A stretch of DNA of 64,000 bases from Pseudoalteromonas sp. (GTDB lineage Bacteria; Pseudomonadota; Gammaproteobacteria; Enterobacterales; Alteromonadaceae), in NCBI RefSeq assembly GCF_018402495.1, contig NZ_JAGYIU010000002.1, positions 834,984 through 898,983 of the forward strand, written 5' to 3'. The translations under genes were made by a program, and so were the position numbers. Numbering within the stretch: the stretch's first letter is position 1; every line of letters starts with the position of its first letter. Shown piece by piece: positions 3,155-22,358 of the stretch. The notes beneath the pieces are model-generated. The model was not told where the DNA came from. It made no database searches and worked only from the letters and a program-made list of their open reading frames with translations.

Positions 3155-4174
3155 GTGCCAATGATACAAAGAAATGAAGCAAATTTGCATAAAAACTGGC
3201 AAAAAGAATTAGCAAATGTAGTTACCTGCCCAAAAGTGTTGTTAGAAATGGTTGGTTTATCGAGCCAAGTCCATGAAAACGACATAAAAGCGCGTAGCTT
3301 GTTCCCTGTTCGTGTGCCATTGCCTTTTATAAAAAAAATTCGTCACGGCGATGCAAATGACCCTTTATTGCTGCAAGTTATGCCCCGCCATCAAGAGTTT
3401 TTAACTAAATCAGGGTTTAATAAAGATCCGTTACTTGAGCAAGATAACAATCAACCGGGTCTGTTACATAAATATAAATCGCGTGTTTTAGTCATGTTTA
3501 AAACCGGTTGTGCAGTAAATTGCCGCTACTGCTTTAGACGCCATTTTCCTTATCAAGAAAACCAACTGAATAAACGTAGCCTTATTGATGCATTGAGTTA
3601 TATAAAATCTGATAAAAATATTAACGAAGTGATTTTAAGTGGTGGCGATCCACTAATGGCCAAAGACGATGCTATTAGCTGGTTTTTAGATGAACTTGAG
3701 CAAATACCACAAATTAAACGCATGCGCATACACAGCCGCTTGCCCGTGGTTATTCCTGCACGTATTACTGAACAATTATGTGAAAGATTAGCAAAGTCAC
3801 CATTAAAAATTATATTCGTTAATCATATTAACCATGCAAACGAAATAGATAATGACTTTAAAAACGCCATGAACATGCTCAAAAAAGCCAATGTGCTGCT
3901 GTTAAATCAGGCGGTTATTTTAAAAGATGTGAACGATACAGTTGATGCGCAAATAAACTTAAGTGAAGCGTTATTTGATGCGGACGTACTGCCTTATTAT
4001 TTACACTTACTGGATAAGGTCGAAGGCGCAAGTCATTTTGATATTGACGAACAACACGCAATAAAAATTCAGGCCGAGCTACTAAAAGCCCTGCCTGGAT
4101 TTTTGGTGCCTAAACTAGTTCGAGAAATAGGAGGTCAAAAAAGTAAAACCCCTATCGACCTCAAATTAGTTTAA
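3155..4174 (+). CDS. epmB: EF-P-linked lysine 2,3-aminomutase EpmB (YjeK)
   Basis: EpmB is a radical SAM, PLP-dependent enzyme that turns (S)-alpha-lysine into (R)-beta-lysine for EF-P modification. The radical SAM cluster motif CAVNCRYC lies at about residues 119-126, followed by the glycine-rich SAM segment EVILSGGDPL. At 339 residues it is the short EpmB type rather than a clostridial catabolic aminomutase. Start choice is between GTG at 3155 and ATG at 3161; neither has a strong ribosome binding site. Only 34 bases separate it from the divergent efp start, so at least one promoter must overlap a coding region. Its stop overlaps the stop of the convergent small gene by 4 bases. Confidence 0.93.
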   Translation: MPMIQRNEANLHKNWQKELANVVTCPKVLLEMVGLSSQVHENDIKARSLFPVRVPLPFIKKIRHGDANDPLLLQVMPRHQEFLTKSGFNKDPLLEQDNNQPGLLHKYKSRVLVMFKTGCAVNCRYCFRRHFPYQENQLNKRSLIDALSYIKSDKNINEVILSGGDPLMAKDDAISWFLDELEQIPQIKRMRIHSRLPVVIPARITEQLCERLAKSPLKIIFVNHINHANEIDNDFKNAMNMLKKANVLLLNQAVILKDVNDTVDAQINLSEALFDADVLPYYLHLLDKVEGASHFDIDEQHAIKIQAELLKALPGFLVPKLVREIGGQKSKTPIDLKLV

Positions 4175-4380
4175 ACATAAACGTTTACATTATTGCCAAG
4201 TGTTGCAGTGACCGACTTAGCCGGTGTTTGCGCACTTGTTGATTGTGCAGCACCTTCAATAAGTGCCAGTGCAGCGGCACCATCAGCTTGCTGTTGCTTT
4301 TTAGATAAAGCAGCAGTTAATACTTCTGCGCCCTGGCCTGCACCAGGCATTGTAGGTAGATTTCCACCTGATATATTCAT
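4171..4380 (-). CDS. Small YjfB-like protein (putative motility-associated family), 69 aa
   Basis: This is a 69-residue, Ala- and Gly-rich protein with a predicted central helix (GQGAEVLTAALSKKQQQADGAA) and the C-terminal motif LGNNVNVY. That pattern resembles small YjfB-type proteins, labelled 'putative motility protein', whose members end in similar LGxNxx motifs; the assignment is from memory and moderate. There is no signal peptide, membrane segment or catalytic motif. The stop overlaps the epmB stop head-on (TTAA shared), with no terminator between them. The function is unknown. Confidence 0.55.
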   Translation of the reverse strand: MNISGGNLPTMPGAGQGAEVLTAALSKKQQQADGAAALALIEGAAQSTSAQTPAKSVTATLGNNVNVYV

Positions 4381-4496
4381 AACTCACACCTGACTTTTAA
4401 CTGTAATACACGTATTATAGTCGCTGAATTGGTAAATTACTTTACCAACCCACTTAAGTATTTATCGGCAACATTGCACTAAGCTTTAGGAAAACC

Positions 4497-4787
4497 ATGG
4501 ATTCTATCATTGAACAACTCAACGCCAACTTAAAAATTGTTTACCGTCAGGCACTTGACGCTGACAAAAAACTCGATGAGTTACAACAGCAAGGTCACGG
4601 AAAATTTAAAGCCTTATTTGCCGAGGACGCTGGATTTAGTTTTGAAGCTAAACGTTTTAAGCCTTACGTGTTAGACGTTGCCGCTGATGTAGAAAGCTTA
4701 TCGAGCGAAGGCTTTGATGAAGAAAAACTAAAACAAGCGGTTATTAAACTACAAAATTTACTAACGCTGTTGGCGACCTTTAAATAA
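4497..4787 (+). CDS. Small helical hypothetical protein, 96 aa
   Basis: The product is unrecognised. It is 96 residues long, charged and probably almost entirely alpha-helical, with leucine-spaced segments at both ends (IIEQLNANLKIVYRQALDADKKLDELQ and KLKQAVIKLQNLLTLLATFK), which suggests a small helical bundle or coiled coil. It has no signal peptide or membrane segment, so it is probably cytosolic. A good ribosome binding site (AGGA) precedes the ATG. It has its own terminator and stands alone between a minus-strand small gene and the convergent DUF3016 gene. Confidence 0.7.
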   Translation: MDSIIEQLNANLKIVYRQALDADKKLDELQQQGHGKFKALFAEDAGFSFEAKRFKPYVLDVAADVESLSSEGFDEEKLKQAVIKLQNLLTLLATFK

Positions 4788-4804
4788 AAATTAGCGACTT
4801 ACTT

Positions 4805-4834
4805 GCAAAGCGTCTACCAAAGTAGATGCTTTGC
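4805..4834. terminator. Terminator between two convergent genes
   Basis: The 13-bp arms GCAAAGCGTCTAC / GTAGATGCTTTGC (one G.T pair) enclose a 4-base loop, CAAA. The hairpin lies 18 bases after the stop of the small helical protein and just before the stop of the DUF3016 gene, so it may work in both directions. Confidence 0.75.
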
Positions 4835-4840
4835 ATTATT

Positions 4841-5329
4841 CTAAATACGCGGTAAAATTTGCTCACCAAACCATTCAGTTAATAAGCGTTTTTCATAGTA
4901 AAATGCCTCATCGCGACCCATTTTAATTTTATCCATGAAGCTCATATCTTTGAGTTTTACATCAGTTGCTTCATTAATTATATTCCCTTTGTCATCTTTT
5001 AATTCATAGTTAAATTCAATCCGTGGAAAGTGAATGGGTTTAACCACCCGAATTTCGTTAACTCCACCAAAGCGCACATCACCTGCTAAATCAATATCTG
5101 TTACTTCAATACTAAGCGTATAGTCTTTTGGTAGCTGCTCGGCAAGTTTTGCCATGTGCTTTTCAATACTATTAGCAATATGCTTATGGTATGAGCCTTT
5201 AGTTTGATTTGATGGGCGTACATCGCGATAATCATTAAAGTCATGCCATTTAACTTGTGCCTCGCCCGCGCAAACAACACTCGGTAGTGCAATAAATAGT
5301 AGCATTGCTATTTTTTTAATTGAGTTCAT
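4841..5329 (-). CDS. DUF3016 family periplasmic protein
   Basis: This protein of about 162 residues has an N-terminal signal peptide (MNSIKKIAMLLFIALPSVVCA), so it is exported, probably to the periplasm. The mature part matches the DUF3016 family in its features: an opening EAQVKWHDFNDYRDVR, a central segment LSIEVTDIDLAGDVRFGG and a C-terminal LLTEWFGEQILP. The family has no known function. I start at the ATG at 5329 because GGAG lies 7 bases upstream; the TTG at 5341 would put that site inside the gene. It appears to be a single-gene unit upstream of and divergent from galE. Confidence 0.85.
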   Translation of the reverse strand: MNSIKKIAMLLFIALPSVVCAGEAQVKWHDFNDYRDVRPSNQTKGSYHKHIANSIEKHMAKLAEQLPKDYTLSIEVTDIDLAGDVRFGGVNEIRVVKPIHFPRIEFNYELKDDKGNIINEATDVKLKDMSFMDKIKMGRDEAFYYEKRLLTEWFGEQILPRI

Positions 5330-15354: not shown

Positions 15355-15762
15355 TTAAGTATTACTGTTTTGGGGGTTACGAACGACCTCAATGATTTCA
15401 GTAGTCGATATAGAAGGTGTACGCGCTAAATATTTAACTTCACATAATGCTTTATATTCATCAAACTTACCGAACCAGTCGTCACCCATTACTAATAAGT
15501 TAGCCTTATGCTGCTTTATGTATTCTCCTTTGAGCTCTAAAGAATGCTCTATAAAAACCTCATCGACGCAGCGCAACGAACTAATGATTTTTATTCGTTC
15601 AACTTCACTATAAATTGGCGCCCTACCTTTTTTTTGCATATTAAGCATATCGGATGAAATCCCGACTATTAAATAGTCACCAAGCTCTTTAGCTCGCTCT
15701 AAAATATTAATATGACCAATATGGAAAATATCAAAAGTACCAAATGTTATAACTCGCTTCAT
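15355..15762 (-). CDS. Glycerol-3-phosphate cytidylyltransferase-like (TagD family)
   Basis: This is a small nucleotidyltransferase of 135 residues. The HxGH motif is HIGH at residues 14-17 in FDIFHIGHINILERA, and the C-terminal RTPSISTTEII fits the RTxGISTT signature. TagD enzymes make CDP-glycerol from CTP and glycerol 3-phosphate for teichoic acids and some Gram-negative capsules. A different alcohol phosphate (for example in the adenylyl/FAD synthase-like group) cannot be excluded, but the next gene belongs to the CDP-glycerol glycerophosphotransferase family, which supports CDP-glycerol. Its start overlaps the stop of that gene by one base (TAATG), so translation is probably coupled. Confidence 0.85.
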   Translation of the reverse strand: MKRVITFGTFDIFHIGHINILERAKELGDYLIVGISSDMLNMQKKGRAPIYSEVERIKIISSLRCVDEVFIEHSLELKGEYIKQHKANLLVMGDDWFGKFDEYKALCEVKYLARTPSISTTEIIEVVRNPQNSNT

Positions 15763-16826
15763 TAGTAATTCTCTAAATAATTAGCTATTCGTTTAGCACA
15801 TAAACCATCAACTTTACCTGCTAACTGCTCAATAATCTTTTTACGATTACGTTTAAATTCGCTCGTCTCAGTTGTACATGTTTTTATAGCATTAGGTAAT
15901 TCACTGTATTGATTTGCTCTATGACAAATTTCATGAAAATATTTAATATCTTCATCTAAACGTGCCTTGAAGCGATAAGAAAATAAGCCTCGATAACTCC
16001 ACCTCAATTTATAAAAGTCGCACCATACCACTGGCTTATCTAATGCAGCAAATTCAAAAATTGCTGATGATGCGTCCGACAACATTATATCTGCAATAGC
16101 TAAAAAAGGTGTTAAGTTAAACTCACTCTCATTTGCTACATATACATTCTTGTATTTTTGCCAATTCAATATTTTTTGTTTTTGCTTTCTGTAGCGTGAT
16201 TTTGCAAGGCTAAAGAAATGCGGCTTTATTATTATATTATAATCTGAGAATTGGCTGGGGAAATCATCATTCATACATTCTATAGAGCTCGGATAAAATG
16301 TTGGCGCGTACAACAAAGTAAGTTTATTTTCGTCTAATCCTAATTGCTGTTTGTCTAGTCCTTTAATTGTTTTGTTTAATATAGGGTCTAATTTTGCGTA
16401 CCCTGTATCAATGAAGTTTCCATTTGGGTATAGCGTTTCTAAACGCTTCAATCGATGTTCACCTTCTACAAACCGAACTGTAGTGGTTATGTTTGATACA
16501 TCGTAATAGCAACTTTTCGGGCCAATGCCATGCTGCATCAAAGCACTTTTTTTATTTAGTGCCGCTGTATCTAAAAATGCATTACCAAAAATAACCCAAT
16601 CACACTCATGGGTATTATAAAATGCTAACGCTTGCTCTGTACTTTCTAACCATACTGACTTTAAAGCCAGTTCCGCAACAAAGTTTTCACATATAGTAAT
16701 AAACTGCGAGTCTTGTGACTTATAAAATACCAGCGAACACTGATGGCCTTTTATTGATAACTCTTCAATTACAGGTAGGTACTGTGGTAAATAGTAAATG
16801 TGTTGAACATCAAAATATACAAGCAT
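15762..16826 (-). CDS. CDP-glycerol glycerophosphotransferase family protein (TagB/TagF-like)
   Basis: This protein of about 354 residues is related to TagB/TagF, enzymes that transfer glycerol phosphate from CDP-glycerol to a membrane-linked glycan or growing polymer. It has a GT-B-like fold pattern; the family hallmark is in MLSDASSAIFEFAALDKPVV and the preceding IIIKPHFF. A single such protein with TagD suggests glycerol-phosphate decoration or a short polymer on a surface polysaccharide. I start at the ATG at 16826; the upstream TTG at 16850 has no support. A TATAAT-like -10 lies about 32 bases upstream. Base composition is AT-rich compared with neighbours, which is consistent with horizontal transfer. 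Confidence 0.82.
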   Translation of the reverse strand: MLVYFDVQHIYYLPQYLPVIEELSIKGHQCSLVFYKSQDSQFITICENFVAELALKSVWLESTEQALAFYNTHECDWVIFGNAFLDTAALNKKSALMQHGIGPKSCYYDVSNITTTVRFVEGEHRLKRLETLYPNGNFIDTGYAKLDPILNKTIKGLDKQQLGLDENKLTLLYAPTFYPSSIECMNDDFPSQFSDYNIIIKPHFFSLAKSRYRKQKQKILNWQKYKNVYVANESEFNLTPFLAIADIMLSDASSAIFEFAALDKPVVWCDFYKLRWSYRGLFSYRFKARLDEDIKYFHEICHRANQYSELPNAIKTCTTETSEFKRNRKKIIEQLAGKVDGLCAKRIANYLENY

Positions 16827-16857
16827 TAATAATACATAATTAAAAAACAATATTTCT

Positions 16858-16908: not shown

Positions 16909-17328
16909 TTAAATTTTTATAATTTCACCACGCAGGGGCGCCATTTTAGCTAAAATTTTATTTTGCACTGTATGTGGGATATTTTGTTCATTCATCGCAT
17001 TTATTAATAAATCGACAACGTGATTAAAGTCTTTTTCATTTATATTCATCCCGGTATGAATTGCGACCATAGAGTCGCCTTTATATTCACAAGGGCCTTC
17101 TGCCAGAGAGCATAAGTGACTAATAAATCCTTGTCGAAAATGGCTAATATTGCTGTGCTCAAAATAATGAAATACTTGATTATCGTTGCCTATTTGCGCA
17201 ATAAAACTATCGGTTAGCTTCTCAAGCCCAGCTCGTTCGCCAAGCTGCTGATACAAAGAGGTGTTGGGTTGGGTTGTACACCCTGCAAGTAAGTTTAAAC
17301 AACAAAAAATAAATACACTCAGTTTCAT
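16909..17328 (-). CDS. Lipoprotein-anchored group 1 truncated haemoglobin
   Basis: This 139-residue protein combines a lipoprotein signal peptide (lipobox LLAGC, Cys at about residue 17) with a group 1 truncated (2/2) globin domain. The domain opening SLYQQLGERAGLEKLTDSFIAQI and the F-helix region MVAIHTGMNI, with the likely proximal His, fit the family. Most bacterial trHbs are cytosolic; here haem would sit in the periplasm on a lipid anchor and could bind O2 or NO or carry out redox chemistry. The ATG at 17328 overlaps the stop of the DUF3034 gene by one base. It is the last of four overlapping genes with a cupredoxin-like protein and a c-di-GMP protein. Confidence 0.88.
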   Translation of the reverse strand: MKLSVFIFCCLNLLAGCTTQPNTSLYQQLGERAGLEKLTDSFIAQIGNDNQVFHYFEHSNISHFRQGFISHLCSLAEGPCEYKGDSMVAIHTGMNINEKDFNHVVDLLINAMNEQNIPHTVQNKILAKMAPLRGEIIKI

Positions 17329-18158
17329 TACCAATACCCCGTAACCGATAAATACCAGCCAGTTTGATTATTAACACCAGCAATCCGCCCTAAGTCTAAA
17401 TAAGCCGCAGTGACACTCATGTGTTTATTAGGGATCCACGCTATAAATAAATCGCGCCAATCTTGCTCGCCCAACCCTAAATTATTGGCTTTTTGCCGAT
17501 ACTCAATGCCAACGGCTAATTCGCGACTTAAAAACACCGCACTACTTGCTTCTAGTAAAATATGACTGCCTTCATTAGCGCCACCATATCCTAACAACCC
17601 TAACTGATTGGCTTTACTGTAGCGGGTGGTTACATTCCAAAACCAGTTGTATCCAGCAAGTGCTCCCAAATGCAATTTACTGGCAGCAAGGTACACATCG
17701 GTACCGCTTGTGTTTTTAGCCCCCACTAACTTTGCTACTGTGCCATCCTCTAGTGATTTATGCTGTACGCCCACACTTAGCTGTGGCCACTGACTATAAA
17801 CAATATCACCGTATAAACGTACTTTTGCTCCAGTAATTGACTGCTCTATTTCGGTATTGAGTGCAGGCACATCAAACTGCTGCACTGCATAACTGAGCTC
17901 AACACGATTGAATAGGTTTAGTTGCATGCCGCAGGCATCAAGACGATAGTCAGTAACATCAGCACGACTACAAAAACCATTAACAGCCCATTCGTCTTCA
18001 CTGGCATACCCTGCCAATTGTGCCCAAGGAACTAATCCGCCCCCTGCACTACCTTCAATTTGAGACACCCCAGGTGTTGCTAATAACTTGCCCGTTGCAG
18101 CCACACTTAACGTACTGCAAAGTAACAGTGACATACTCAATAAAAATTTAATGTACAC
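17328..18158 (-). CDS. DUF3034 family outer-membrane-like protein
   Basis: This protein of 276 residues has a signal peptide (LLSMSLLLCSTLSVA) and a mature part rich in Gly, Tyr, Trp and alternating strands, ending in an aromatic residue (YLSVTGYW). That is the pattern of a small outer-membrane beta-barrel. The N-terminal PGVSQIEGSAGGGLVPWAQLAGY is typical of DUF3034. Its function is unknown. Translation starts at a GTG preceded by AGAGGA and overlaps the end of the GGDEF/EAL gene by 11 bases. Its place in an operon with a periplasmic globin and a cupredoxin suggests an envelope redox or small-molecule role, which is inference. Confidence 0.87.
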   Translation of the reverse strand: MYIKFLLSMSLLLCSTLSVAATGKLLATPGVSQIEGSAGGGLVPWAQLAGYASEDEWAVNGFCSRADVTDYRLDACGMQLNLFNRVELSYAVQQFDVPALNTEIEQSITGAKVRLYGDIVYSQWPQLSVGVQHKSLEDGTVAKLVGAKNTSGTDVYLAASKLHLGALAGYNWFWNVTTRYSKANQLGLLGYGGANEGSHILLEASSAVFLSRELAVGIEYRQKANNLGLGEQDWRDLFIAWIPNKHMSVTAAYLDLGRIAGVNNQTGWYLSVTGYW

Positions 18159-20463
18159 GCTGATATTCCTCTAACCATTGTTCTAATTGCTGCGCTTTTA
18201 AAGGGCGACTTAAATAGTAACCTTGCGCATGATCGCATTGCATTTCGTGAAGCATTGATAAAGACTCAGCGGTTTCCACACCCTCAGCCACAACAGAAAA
18301 CCCCAATTGGTGACCCAGCGTGATTGAAGAGCGCACTATGTATTGATCTTTTTGTGATTCGTGCAGAGTTAAAATAAAGCATTTATCTAACTTAAGCTCA
18401 TCAATAGGTAACATTTTTAAGCGCCCCAATGATGTTTGTCCGACACCGTAATCGTCCAATGAAATTTTAACACCAATACCTTTTAAGTCTTGTAACGCTT
18501 TAATACCTTGGGCTTCATTTTCAATCATATCGCGCTCTGTAAGCTCAATAGTGACAACGCTTGGGTTTACTTGGTATTTATTTAAGGTGGCTACCAAAGA
18601 AGCGTGAAAACCTGAATGAGCAATATCTTGGGCAGAAACATTAATAGCGGCTTGTAAATGAATATCCTTTTTTGACCAATCGGCTATTTGTGCAATCACA
18701 GTCTCGACAACCCAAGCGGTCAGCTCGACGATTAACCCTGATTGCTCAGCTAAATCAATAAAGACCTCGGGCGACACCCAACGACCGTCTTGACGTTGCC
18801 AACGGATAAGAGACTCTACTTTGTCAATTTTCTGACTTTTAATATTCAACTTAGGCTGATAGGTCATAAATAATTGTCCATTATCATCATCAATTGCTTG
18901 TTTGAGTTCATCAAGCATAATTAAACGCTCCAAATGCGCCTCATCTTCACCGTCTTGATAATAATGTAAGCTTTGCTGACTCGTTGTAGCTGCATCTACA
19001 GCAATGAGTACACGTCGCATTAAATCGTCTGCTTTAGTCCCTTGCTCTGGGTATTGCACAATACCAGCATTAAAACGTAAGCTTATTTTTAAATTTTTAA
19101 CCTTGTAAGCTAGCTGTAATTGCTTGAGTAAATCAGCCACAGCACATTTTACCTGCTCAACCTCTGCACAAGGGTAAACCGTTAAAAATTCATCGCCACC
19201 AATACGGGCATGAAAACCACCTAGCTCATCAGAAAATTGACGAATACGGTTTGCCACTGCAATTAAACATCCATCCCCTACTTGTGGACCAAGCTTATCG
19301 TTTATATGCCTTAAGCCTTTTATATCAATAGCAACAAGCGTGTACCGCGCATCATTAGTGAGCCGCTTAGCTAATAAATCTAACATAGCAGAACGGTTAT
19401 AAAACCCTGTTAAAGTATCGTGATGTGCTTGAAAACTTATTTGCTGCTCACGTTTGTTAATATCATTACCCATGTTATTAAACGCGCTGACGAGGGTTTC
19501 TATTTCACTACTTTGTTTTTTACCTTCAAATTTAAAGCGGTAGTCGCCTTTAGCAAACTGCCTTGCAATAACAACGAGCTGTGAAAGCCCTGAGGTTAAA
19601 TTATTGGCTAATAAACTACTGGTAATCACACCAAATAGCATAGTTAAAACAGCGAGTGTGATCAGCGTTAATAATAATTGCTCAATATCGCGATAACTCG
19701 AGGTTAAATCTGCGCTAAGCAGTAAGTTTATCGGATGCGATTGTAAAGAGGGTAAAGCTATTTGTTCGTTTTCATAGGCCAAGTATTCTGCAAAAAAACG
19801 AGCCGTAGTTTTATTGGTAAAGTAAGTTATTGGTTGAAAGTTATCTGGTTGGGATACTAGCGAGCTTGTTGCAAAATCATCTAATTGCGCAACAAAACTC
19901 ACCTCCATACCGGTTAAGCTTTTTAGCTCAGTGGCCACAGCAGATGTTATTTTAAATCCGACCAAACTGTAAGCTATGGTTCTGGGAGTTTTAACTGGCA
20001 ATAAAATCACTTGGTACAGCTGGTTATTTAACACCACAAAGCTCGATTGCTCAGCGTTATTTAATAACTCATCCATCAAGGGTTGTAGATTATCGGCAAA
20101 ATTTTGTGCATTAACATTAGCTGATACTAACCGCCCTGATAAATCGAGCAACAGCATAAGATCCGCATTGATCCGTTGACTGTGGTTGTATAACACACTG
20201 CTAATAGTGGCGGCATCTCGCGTAGCAACCGCTTGCTTAAAACCAAAATCAGCGGTTAACACCTTTGCGGCTGTTAATAATAAGCTCTCTTTTGATTTTA
20301 AATATTGTTTATAAACACTTTGCGCAACCGTTATATTTTGCTGGACTTTTTCTGCCTGAAACTTACTAGTAGACCACCAAAAACTCACTAAACTGAGTAA
20401 AGTTGTAAGTAACACCAAGCCAACGCATAGCGTTGTTATACGGCTGCGTAAATTATTGCCCAT
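18148..20463 (-). CDS. Membrane-bound GGDEF/EAL c-di-GMP protein
   Basis: This is a 771-residue sensor-type protein. An N-terminal membrane segment (about residues 7-30), a periplasmic region of about 230 residues, a second membrane segment (about 265-290) and a HAMP-like linker are followed by GGDEF and EAL domains. The GGDEF motif is intact (ARIGGDEFLTVYP, about residues 422-426), so cyclase activity is possible; the RxxD inhibitory site five residues upstream is missing. The EAL signature is ESLIRW (about residue 549), with ELTERD, SLDDYGVG, ELKLDK and VAEGVET present, so phosphodiesterase activity is also possible. ATG at 20463 has GGAAGG upstream and overlaps the cupredoxin gene by 11 bases. 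Confidence 0.93.
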   Translation of the reverse strand: MGNNLRSRITTLCVGLVLLTTLLSLVSFWWSTSKFQAEKVQQNITVAQSVYKQYLKSKESLLLTAAKVLTADFGFKQAVATRDAATISSVLYNHSQRINADLMLLLDLSGRLVSANVNAQNFADNLQPLMDELLNNAEQSSFVVLNNQLYQVILLPVKTPRTIAYSLVGFKITSAVATELKSLTGMEVSFVAQLDDFATSSLVSQPDNFQPITYFTNKTTARFFAEYLAYENEQIALPSLQSHPINLLLSADLTSSYRDIEQLLLTLITLAVLTMLFGVITSSLLANNLTSGLSQLVVIARQFAKGDYRFKFEGKKQSSEIETLVSAFNNMGNDINKREQQISFQAHHDTLTGFYNRSAMLDLLAKRLTNDARYTLVAIDIKGLRHINDKLGPQVGDGCLIAVANRIRQFSDELGGFHARIGGDEFLTVYPCAEVEQVKCAVADLLKQLQLAYKVKNLKISLRFNAGIVQYPEQGTKADDLMRRVLIAVDAATTSQQSLHYYQDGEDEAHLERLIMLDELKQAIDDDNGQLFMTYQPKLNIKSQKIDKVESLIRWQRQDGRWVSPEVFIDLAEQSGLIVELTAWVVETVIAQIADWSKKDIHLQAAINVSAQDIAHSGFHASLVATLNKYQVNPSVVTIELTERDMIENEAQGIKALQDLKGIGVKISLDDYGVGQTSLGRLKMLPIDELKLDKCFILTLHESQKDQYIVRSSITLGHQLGFSVVAEGVETAESLSMLHEMQCDHAQGYYLSRPLKAQQLEQWLEEYQRVH

Positions 20464-21118
20464 TACCTTCCCTAAATTTACTACCAAAGGTATTTCGTGG
20501 TGCAGGCGTAGACGTATTTATAGTGATTGATAACGGGTTGGTTGATTCTATATCAAATAGCTTTTTATTATCCAAAGGAGCTGTTTGCAGTGAATGCCAA
20601 ACACTGGCTTGCACAGGAAAAGTGTCTGTTTGAAGTTCAATACGCCCTTGCTCGTCGCTGGTATATACCTGATCACTGTTAGCAACATAAATATAGCCCA
20701 CCATAGAATCGTGGATATTGCAGCCTAGAACAACAACGCCTTGATTATCAAACTTAATAGGTTCTTCTGGCTGACCTGAATATAATTTTAACTGAAAAGG
20801 CTTAGCCTTTGAAAAAGAATAAACATGATGGCGAATATCATCACTATTTGGAAAATTAACGTACTGACCTTGGCGCACAATAAGCAGCTGTGGTGAAAAC
20901 TGTTTATCAACTTGATCCATCACCGCTGTGGGTAAATTACTTTGTACTTTTGAGGAAGGTAAATGCTTTATTTCGACTACAGCATTAGGCAATACTTGAC
21001 CATGCTGATCTTTAATAACCAAATTAATAGAATTACCAAACGCCGATACACTAAACAATGCACCCACAATTAATAAAAAACGACGTTTTGCAATAAGTTG
21101 CGATGCTCGCTCTAACAT
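20453..21118 (-). CDS. Cupredoxin-like periplasmic protein ('methylamine utilization protein' annotation type)
   Basis: This 221-residue exported protein has a signal peptide (FLLIVGALFSVSAFG) and a plastocyanin-like domain. Likely type 1 copper ligands are visible: His in DIRHHVYSF (about residue 96) and the cluster LGCNIHDSMVGY (Cys, His and Met at about 130-137). The preceding SPQLLIVRQGQYVNFPNSD is typical of cupredoxins. Such proteins are often labelled 'methylamine utilization protein', but no mau genes are nearby. It is the first gene of a four-gene overlapping operon with a GGDEF/EAL protein, DUF3034 and a lipoprotein globin. ATG at 21118 is preferred over the TTG at 21130. Confidence 0.83.
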   Translation of the reverse strand: MLERASQLIAKRRFLLIVGALFSVSAFGNSINLVIKDQHGQVLPNAVVEIKHLPSSKVQSNLPTAVMDQVDKQFSPQLLIVRQGQYVNFPNSDDIRHHVYSFSKAKPFQLKLYSGQPEEPIKFDNQGVVVLGCNIHDSMVGYIYVANSDQVYTSDEQGRIELQTDTFPVQASVWHSLQTAPLDNKKLFDIESTNPLSITINTSTPAPRNTFGSKFREGNGQ

Positions 21119-21254
21119 AACCACACCCAAAAATTCACTATAGGGTAAGTTAATTAGAGACGAGCACTAATTGCAAGAATTATAGCTCAGTTACTTAAAA
21201 TAAATACTTTTTCACTAGTTGAGTTCAGCTTTATCATTAAGATTAACTTGCTCG

Positions 21255-22358
21255 TTAGTGATTAATTAAACCGTAATCAGCATCTAAAATAGCAATCACT
21301 TCTTGGCGCGGATCATTGGGTATAACGATCTCTTTACCAATTATTTTACTGGCTATACCCACATAAGTGTCAGACACTTCAAGCATCACTGACTCAGGTA
21401 GAATATAATCTTTTGCTAACTGCTCACGCTCAGCCATACGATCTTTATTTAGTAACACGTCACTCTCTGGCACATTATTAATTAACAGCTGGCGAAAACC
21501 TTCTTTTGAGTTTTCAACAATGTTGCCATCTTTATAAGATGCTTCATCCCAAATACGTGATGAATCGGGTGTCCCTACTTCATCAATATAAATAAGTTGC
21601 TGCACGCCATTGATATCGTCGACATATCCAAATTCAAATTTAGTATCAACGAAAATTTGCCCAAGCTTAGCTAGCTCATTACTGATAAGGCCGAACCCTT
21701 CTACCAACAATTTTTCGTATTTTGTGACATCGTCTGCCGATTTAAAGTTAAATACATCTAAGTTGTTTGTAATATTCTCACGCGTGATATTCACATCGTC
21801 AACAGCAGGAATATCAGCCACCCCTTCAATAATACCTTTAGTAGAAGGAGTAATAAGTACTTGCTCAAGCTTTTGATTGGCAATTAAGCCATCTGGTAAA
21901 TTAATACCACAAAAATGTCGTTCGCCTTTAGCATAGTCGCGCCACATACTGCCGGTAATATATTGACGAGCAATCGCTTCAACTTTAACCGTACTGGCTT
22001 TACGTACAATCCATACATAAGGATGAGGAATATCAACAATGTGATTGCCAGCCAAACCAGCTTCATTAAACATGTTAAACCAATGAGCAGCCACTGAGTT
22101 CAATGCAATGCCTTTACCAGGTACGCCATTTAAGCCATTTTCACCTTGCCATATGCAATCAAATGCAGAAATCCTGTCTGAAATAACCATAATAGCTAAT
22201 TCAGTATCGGCAGGGACGTTATAGCCTTTTTCATTTATTAAGCGTTTACTGTCTGCATCGGTTAACCAATAAACTGAACGCACTTTACCACTGTGCACTT
22301 TACCTTTGGTACGTATGGGTAAGTCATCGTTTACGTCTAAAACTTTATAGCTAGTCAT
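21255..22358 (-). CDS. purC: Phosphoribosylaminoimidazole-succinocarboxamide synthase (SAICAR synthetase)
   Basis: PurC performs the ATP-dependent condensation of CAIR with aspartate in de novo purine synthesis. At 367 residues this is the longer form of the enzyme. Signatures are GKVRSVYWL near the N-terminus, [24 protein letters not shown] and the C-terminal [14 protein letters not shown]. The ATG at 22358 follows GGAG at 22368-22365; the frame stays open to 22451 but the extra residues have no family support. No PurR-like box was seen upstream. It is divergent from the ABC transporter genes. Confidence 0.95.

Follow-up and report, generated by a model that had tools for sequence, protein, structure and literature searches.

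The window, the whole stretch of 64,000 nucleotides that was analysed, belongs to a Pseudoalteromonas sp. genome of 3,850,955 bases, and carries on its minus strand four genes which run from 21118 down to 16909 and encode a putatively secreted cupredoxin (C), a transmembrane GGDEF/EAL protein (E), a DUF3034 protein predicted to form an outer-membrane barrel (D) and a truncated globin with the features of a lipoprotein (G). The genes were taken from the list of open reading frames, where the starts of C, E and G are in-frame starts within the longest listed frames. Consecutive genes overlap by 11 (C/E), 11 (E/D) and 1 (D/G) bases, and these coordinates confirm the overlapping four-gene operon described in an earlier note on this DNA; purine runs are present shortly 5' of E and D, within the preceding genes. 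The neighbour 5' of the cupredoxin gene, by eye similar to SAICAR synthase, ends at 21255, and the intergenic stretch that follows (21119..21254, minus strand) is, from its position, presumed to contain the operon promoter. The gene 3' of the operon begins at 16850 on the same strand; by Pfam, the adjoining stretch 15355-16850 (minus strand) contains a cytidylyltransferase-like and a CDP-glycerol glycerophosphotransferase-like gene. Between 15300 and 22600, neither promoter-like sites (14, compared with 23.8 in shuffles) nor terminator-like sites (6, compared with 5.3) were in clear excess. No DNA match was found in the plasmid collection, nor any match of C or D in PHROGs, and none of the open reading frames in the searched loci matched two of the four profiles.

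Features of the four proteins

The cupredoxin gene (20453..21118, minus strand) encodes 221 amino acids, which by eye begin with a signal-peptide-like stretch. The protein has no Pfam match, and in NCBIfam it showed a weak match to pseudoazurin, far under the cut-off. Its AF2 model (mean pLDDT 90.8) has amicyanin, pseudoazurin and plastocyanin as the top Foldseek matches (E-value about 1e-5), and the predicted fold is that of a cupredoxin. Three of the four probable type-1 copper ligands form the motif C133-N-I-H136-D-S-M139 (20702..20722, minus strand), whose C-x2-H-x2-M spacing is presumably that of amicyanin, while the first ligand would be H97 (20828..20830, minus strand). All four residues are invariant in 99 of 99 cupredoxins of this family, counted among proteins with an E-value below 1e-40, with the weaker and more distant matches left aside. 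By this His-Cys-His-Met set, C is probably a type-1 copper protein and would be loaded with copper. The fold and the ligand set are common to C and to amicyanin, pseudoazurin and plastocyanin; unlike these proteins, to which it is about 20% identical, C carries additional strands on either side, has a Trp-His pair that is largely conserved, and is associated with c-di-GMP enzymes. The usual role of type-1 copper sites is electron transfer, not copper buffering.

The second gene (18148..20463, minus strand, with an in-frame ATG at 20463) encodes a protein of 771 amino acids with two hydrophobic stretches, seen as 19-residue windows at 9 and 263 (about residues 9-27 and 263-281). Its domains are a putative periplasmic dCache_3 sensor (residues 43-202; 19858..20337, minus strand; PF14827, E-value 1.1e-9), a HAMP domain (residues 284-334; 19462..19614, minus strand; PF00672, E-value 1e-5), a GGDEF domain (residues 346-493; 18985..19428, minus strand; Pfam E-value 5.7e-27) and an EAL domain (residues 519-754; 18202..18909, minus strand; Pfam E-value 2.6e-65). 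In the window, the GGDEF motif and all eight catalytic positions checked in the EAL domain are intact. Among 79 relatives with an E-value below 1e-190 whose genes adjoin C, none departs from the eight EAL residues, but the GGDEF motif is often degenerate, with [GAS]GDEF present in 27 of the 79; in a separate count of 58 module members, 17 had the exact GGDEF. The intact motif of a diguanylate cyclase is consequently not a family-wide trait, and since the EAL residues are retained, the most likely output is breakdown of c-di-GMP by a phosphodiesterase. The control of c-di-GMP by this protein that the earlier note proposed would most likely be exerted by a phosphodiesterase. A search of the sensor region for conserved His, Cys or Met residues found none, so that a metal signal would need to be relayed by the cupredoxin.

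The third gene (17328..18158, minus strand, GTG start) encodes a DUF3034 protein of 276 amino acids, with a match to PF11231 (E-value 9.6e-109; 363 bits against a gathering cut-off of 25) and, by eye, a signal-peptide-like stretch at the N-terminus. The AF2 model is a barrel of 12 strands with a mean pLDDT of 83.5, in which residues 23-41 are mostly below 50. The nearest solved folds are FapF (Z 20.4), KdgM (18.8) and a COG4313 channel (18.3), and the copper transporter PcoB also appears among the matches (Z 13.0). The barrel architecture that the model of D has in common with FapF, KdgM and other 12-strand outer-membrane channels shows no function, as identity is about 10% and no common function has been shown; unlike FapF and KdgM, DUF3034 has a conserved Gly-rich stretch at the N-terminus. 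A Pfam family of unknown function is thereby provided with a predicted fold and a genomic context.

The last gene (16909..17328, minus strand) encodes a globin of 139 amino acids (PF01152, Bac_globin, E-value 2.6e-13) with an LAGC lipobox, identified by eye, at the N-terminus. A lipobox-like pattern is present in 115 of 147 related globins; among the rest, some have lipoboxes outside the pattern and others resemble plain signal peptides. The proximal F8 histidine (His91; 17056-17058, minus strand) is conserved in 138 of 138 distinct globins, and Cys73 (17110-17112, minus strand) and Cys80 (17089-17091, minus strand) each in 137 of them; by its histidine, G is a putative haem protein. The distal positions are apolar, at B10, E7 and E11 in 137, 138 and 138 of the 138 globins, respectively: B10 is I, L or V in 136 (with one M and one N), E7 is F or L in 134 (otherwise V or I) and E11 is L or F in 126 (otherwise I or M). 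Among solved chains, group 1 truncated haemoglobins (such as PDB 3aq5 and 1idr) come nearest; they belong to the same Pfam family and agree with G in the proximal histidine and in length. We take them to have Tyr at B10 and Gln at E7/E11, which fits their alignment with G, the position names being assumed likewise. G differs from them in its apolar distal pocket, its conserved cysteine pair and, by sequence, its character as an exported protein or lipoprotein. The polar pocket of O2/NO-type group 1 globins (B10 Tyr, E7/E11 Gln) is absent from G, and stable binding of O2 or NO dioxygenation is therefore unlikely. Of the haem, O2 and NO chemistry suggested earlier, the haem-binding histidine is kept, but the lack of polar distal residues weakens O2 storage or NO dioxygenation. 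One further truncated globin is encoded in the same genome (G000:C9:2126-2482), with a better Bac_globin score than G.

Conservation of the cluster and its two units

DUF3034 was found in 77 of 147 genomes of the family. In the samples of the class (369 genomes) and of the phylum (398 genomes) it was present in 18 and 39, respectively, and a search of 14 control genomes gave no match. From 122 distinct genomes with DUF3034, a set of 77 loci was assembled (76 fetched, plus the window), which leaves aside a contig-end match in G207 and 44 other genomes. All four genes are together in 58 of the 77 loci, in the order C-E-D-G in 50; in five, which are the five loci fetched from outside the class, C-E is divergent from D-G, and three more have all four genes in other forms (L049, where they are in pieces, L054 and L113). 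The remaining loci have D-G only (nine, some of them at contig ends), D alone (four) or other subsets (six), and C-D-G without E occurs in L080, L154, L160 and L201. The genes therefore cluster far beyond close relatives and into another class, so that the proposal survives one of the two refuting conditions set in the earlier note, a lack of co-occurrence outside close relatives.

A second set, the best 80 named loci among the matches listed, of which seven are identical to loci of the first set, contains all four genes in 67 cases; for the 73 further loci, the best among the matches listed, all four genes were found in 60 and the plain C-E-D-G order in 55. The named hosts among these best 80 matches include Pseudoalteromonas, Colwellia, Alteromonas, Methylophaga, Pseudomonas, Xanthomonas, Shewanella and Rheinheimera. 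The DUF3034 protein of the window is closest to Pseudoalteromonas among the named matches listed (69-78% identity for the four). Neighbour clustering revealed no fifth member: every other family is confined to at most 7 of the 77 DUF3034 loci, and no recurring cytochrome, oxidase or copper-resistance neighbours were seen in them. Because the order recurs and no other neighbour does, the arrangement goes beyond chance, and by comparison of genomes the cluster appears as a selected four-gene unit that is widespread and conserved.

Within it, two units can be distinguished by their occurrence, C-E and D-G. Among the 147 family genomes, 116 have both C and E, two C only, three E only and 26 neither (Fisher p = 2.5e-23, not corrected for kinship). 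For this count, only strong C matches, from the best 150, were taken as presence, and weaker ones as absence, so that five genomes with weak matches were scored as lacking C. As a rough check on kinship, made by eye, ten genera (g278, g279, g285, g296, g303, g305, g307, g308, g309 and g319) contain genomes with both genes as well as genomes with neither, and two genera, g321 and g273, include E-only genomes. Outside the family, E was present in 35 of 38 genomes with a strong C and in none of 28 with a weak C or no C; these 66 genomes were picked by C status, and some of them had contributed rows to profile A5. Of 145 E copies, 115 follow C directly on its 3' side, and in five genomes whose C has no E beside it (G386, G637, G652, G348 and G495) the enzyme gene lies elsewhere. 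E was not found in the C-bearing family genomes G395 and G439 (81% and 87% complete) or in the C-bearing genomes G107, G553 and G726 (the last 73% complete). As the two genes co-occur even when unlinked, the coupling of a copper-type protein to a c-di-GMP enzyme, the core of the earlier proposal, is well supported by comparative genomics.

Any C match (to an E-value of 0.001) was found in 77 of 77 family genomes with D and in 46 of 70 others, and D is missing from 46 of the 123 family genomes with any C match, both among the matches listed. G is near D in 72 of 77 loci, and in G358 and G280 the D-G pair is present with neither C nor E found. The four genes are thus clustered as the earlier note had seen, but the single module it drew from this is better divided, since C-E pairs occur independently of DUF3034 and the globin, and D-G is separable.

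Genes beside the cupredoxin away from DUF3034

Cupredoxin loci away from DUF3034 were chosen by hand, and 39 of these were used, the 40th (L267) being a full module. By a strict rule, E directly follows C in 21 of the 39, and L243, L252, L258 and L270 have a similar C-E layout in which the matches are weaker or overlap. A family of about 411 amino acids, here named B, is located beside C or C-E in 22 loci (L265:3939-5177, L236:5627-6856 and 20 further loci among L235-L269), 15 with and seven without an adjacent E, and is found in 15 of the 21 strict C-E loci. The five members scanned gave no Pfam match, and our reading of the sequences by eye suggests an exported barrel. The cupredoxin thus tends to be accompanied by a protein of outer-membrane type, which belongs either to the D or to the B family. 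A relationship of B to DUF3034 is not claimed, as the profile comparison was weak (probability 49 over 90 columns).

Several other arrangements were observed. In L236 (by Pfam) and L241 (by eye), C-B comes after a TonB-dependent receptor and a PKHD-type 2OG-Fe(II) oxygenase, which hints at iron uptake. L253 has a gene for a MauG-like dihaem protein, recognised by eye (3928-4941), that separates the cupredoxin gene from a large GGDEF/EAL gene, and in L273 and L274 such a protein is encoded close to cupredoxin-like genes. Directly 5' of the cupredoxin gene in L271 (987-1859), and by eye also in L270, lies a gene whose product, of 290 amino acids in L271, matches MtrB/PioB very weakly there (E-value 0.046). 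In L105 and L106, the cupredoxin gene is flanked by two copies of the GGDEF/EAL gene.

Proposed mechanism and its rivals

The reading that we prefer, and which we regard as having about equal chances of being right or wrong, is that the cluster is an envelope-spanning c-di-GMP control module of two coupled units. In the first unit, the periplasmic type-1 cupredoxin would serve as the receptor protein for the membrane GGDEF/EAL enzyme, and its copper or redox state would be passed to the dCache_3 domain and then through HAMP, altering the phosphodiesterase activity of the EAL domain. In the second unit, the outer-membrane barrel and the haem lipoprotein would supply, admit or process whatever alters the cupredoxin. 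Direct contact between C and E is suggested by their co-occurrence and adjacency, and a copper or redox signal, possibly NO, by the invariant ligand set together with an enzyme sensor that has no conserved metal ligand; export, copper and haem loading and phosphodiesterase output would likewise be parts of this scheme. A bolder and rather unlikely form of it would have a blue-copper carrier as the c-di-GMP receptor, whose redox state is set by electrons or NO arriving via the barrel and a disulfide-bearing haem lipoprotein, and which gates the phosphodiesterase; if true, this would be a new principle of c-di-GMP sensing, by which a cell reads the redox state at its outer surface and stays or leaves. 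Many GGDEF/EAL enzymes have no known input. For one such family, which travels with DUF3034 (at least 590 DUF3034 relatives in one collection), the cupredoxin is a close partner whose cofactor site can be read from the sequence, and it points to what the input is. A link from copper or redox chemistry in the envelope to biofilm control is now directly testable.

The main rival, which we consider somewhat unlikely, is that the cupredoxin, the barrel and the globin are themselves effectors, forming a periplasmic electron or metal pathway across the outer membrane, while E adjusts lifestyle and shares the operon with C through co-regulation, without direct contact. The mirror-tree comparison, given as partial correlations over 95 loci, is in line with this: the value for C and the E sensor was 0.10 (reached by 4 of 500 permutations) and that for C and the E catalytic half 0.12, whereas C-D (0.22), C-G (0.17) and D-G (0.40) were all above the sensor pair, which is therefore not singled out and receives no specific support for contact over these loci. 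The low sensor value speaks against the receptor model, as do the lack of conserved His, Cys or Met in the E sensor region, the seven C-B loci without an adjacent E, the existence of some unpaired C or E genes, and the regulator box patterns 5' of C (see below), none of which stood out clearly. The effector pathway is also favoured by the presence of C beside two barrel or barrel-like families even where E is not adjacent, by the four C-D-G loci without E, by the TonB-dependent receptor and 2OG-Fe(II) oxygenase before C-B in L236 and L241, and by the MauG-like protein, seen by eye, between C and E in L253. However, it accounts poorly for the close co-occurrence of C and E even when unlinked, for the absence of D from so many C-bearing family genomes among the matches listed, and for the lack of recurring cytochrome or oxidase neighbours in the 77 DUF3034 loci.

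It is improbable, in our estimate, that the cluster is a periplasmic sensor of NO or O2, in which the globin binds the gas, electrons pass to the cupredoxin and the cupredoxin switches the phosphodiesterase, with biofilm dispersal as an example of the outcome. The conserved proximal histidine and cysteine pair agree with such a sensor, as do the probable phosphodiesterase output and the presence of G in the cluster in most loci, but the apolar distal pocket sets G apart from the closest solved group 1 globins, as we presume these to be, and many C-E loci have no adjacent G. Box patterns for FNR, Fur, CopR/CusR, NsrR and CueR, with LexA as a control, were compared between the 5' stretches of 99 C genes and one shuffle of each, and no pattern was clearly above the shuffle. 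FNR-like sites with one mismatch, which would favour a gas sensor, occurred 5' of 6 of the 99 genes compared with 1 of 99 in the one shuffle, too few for judgement, and NsrR-like boxes, which would be expected to do so as well, were at the shuffled level, as were CueR- and CopR-like boxes. A copper-stress device, in which periplasmic copper is handled by C and the barrel while E responds to copper changes by lowering c-di-GMP, is very improbable in our estimate. The invariant type-1 ligand set and the PcoB match of the barrel speak for it. Against it stand the higher scores of D with FapF, KdgM and further channels of 12 strands (Z 18 to 20), the absence of recurring copper-resistance genes in the 77 DUF3034 loci and of an excess of CueR- or CopR-like boxes, and the general role of type-1 sites stated above.

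The excerpts of the open-licence literature that was searched, including PMC3770913, PMC8055020, PMC6515357, PMC8832773, PMC5847120 and PMC7019866, contain no description of the four-gene module; DUF3034 appears there in a retron paper, whose legend elsewhere has DUF3037, and in a Streptomyces gene list, neither of which concerns the module. Two known systems offer a comparison for the preferred receptor reading. In the polyamine receptor NspS-MbaA of Vibrio cholerae, according to excerpts of PMC8967002, a periplasmic partner acts with a membrane enzyme that makes or degrades c-di-GMP. The present cluster would likewise join a periplasmic partner protein, by putative contact, to a membrane c-di-GMP enzyme, but the partner is by its predicted fold a cupredoxin and not a polyamine-binding protein, and the cluster has a barrel and a globin in addition. 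In YfiBNR of Pseudomonas aeruginosa, as given in excerpts of PMC4655355, the outer-membrane lipoprotein YfiB acts through periplasmic YfiR on the control of c-di-GMP by YfiN. The chain proposed here would similarly lead from the outer membrane through a periplasmic protein to c-di-GMP control; the protein families differ by domain content, and, unlike in YfiBNR, a copper-type protein takes the periplasmic place, the enzyme probably acts as a phosphodiesterase, and the outer-membrane parts would be a barrel and a globin. By analogy, then, the logic would match that of NspS-MbaA and YfiBNR, while the parts differ.
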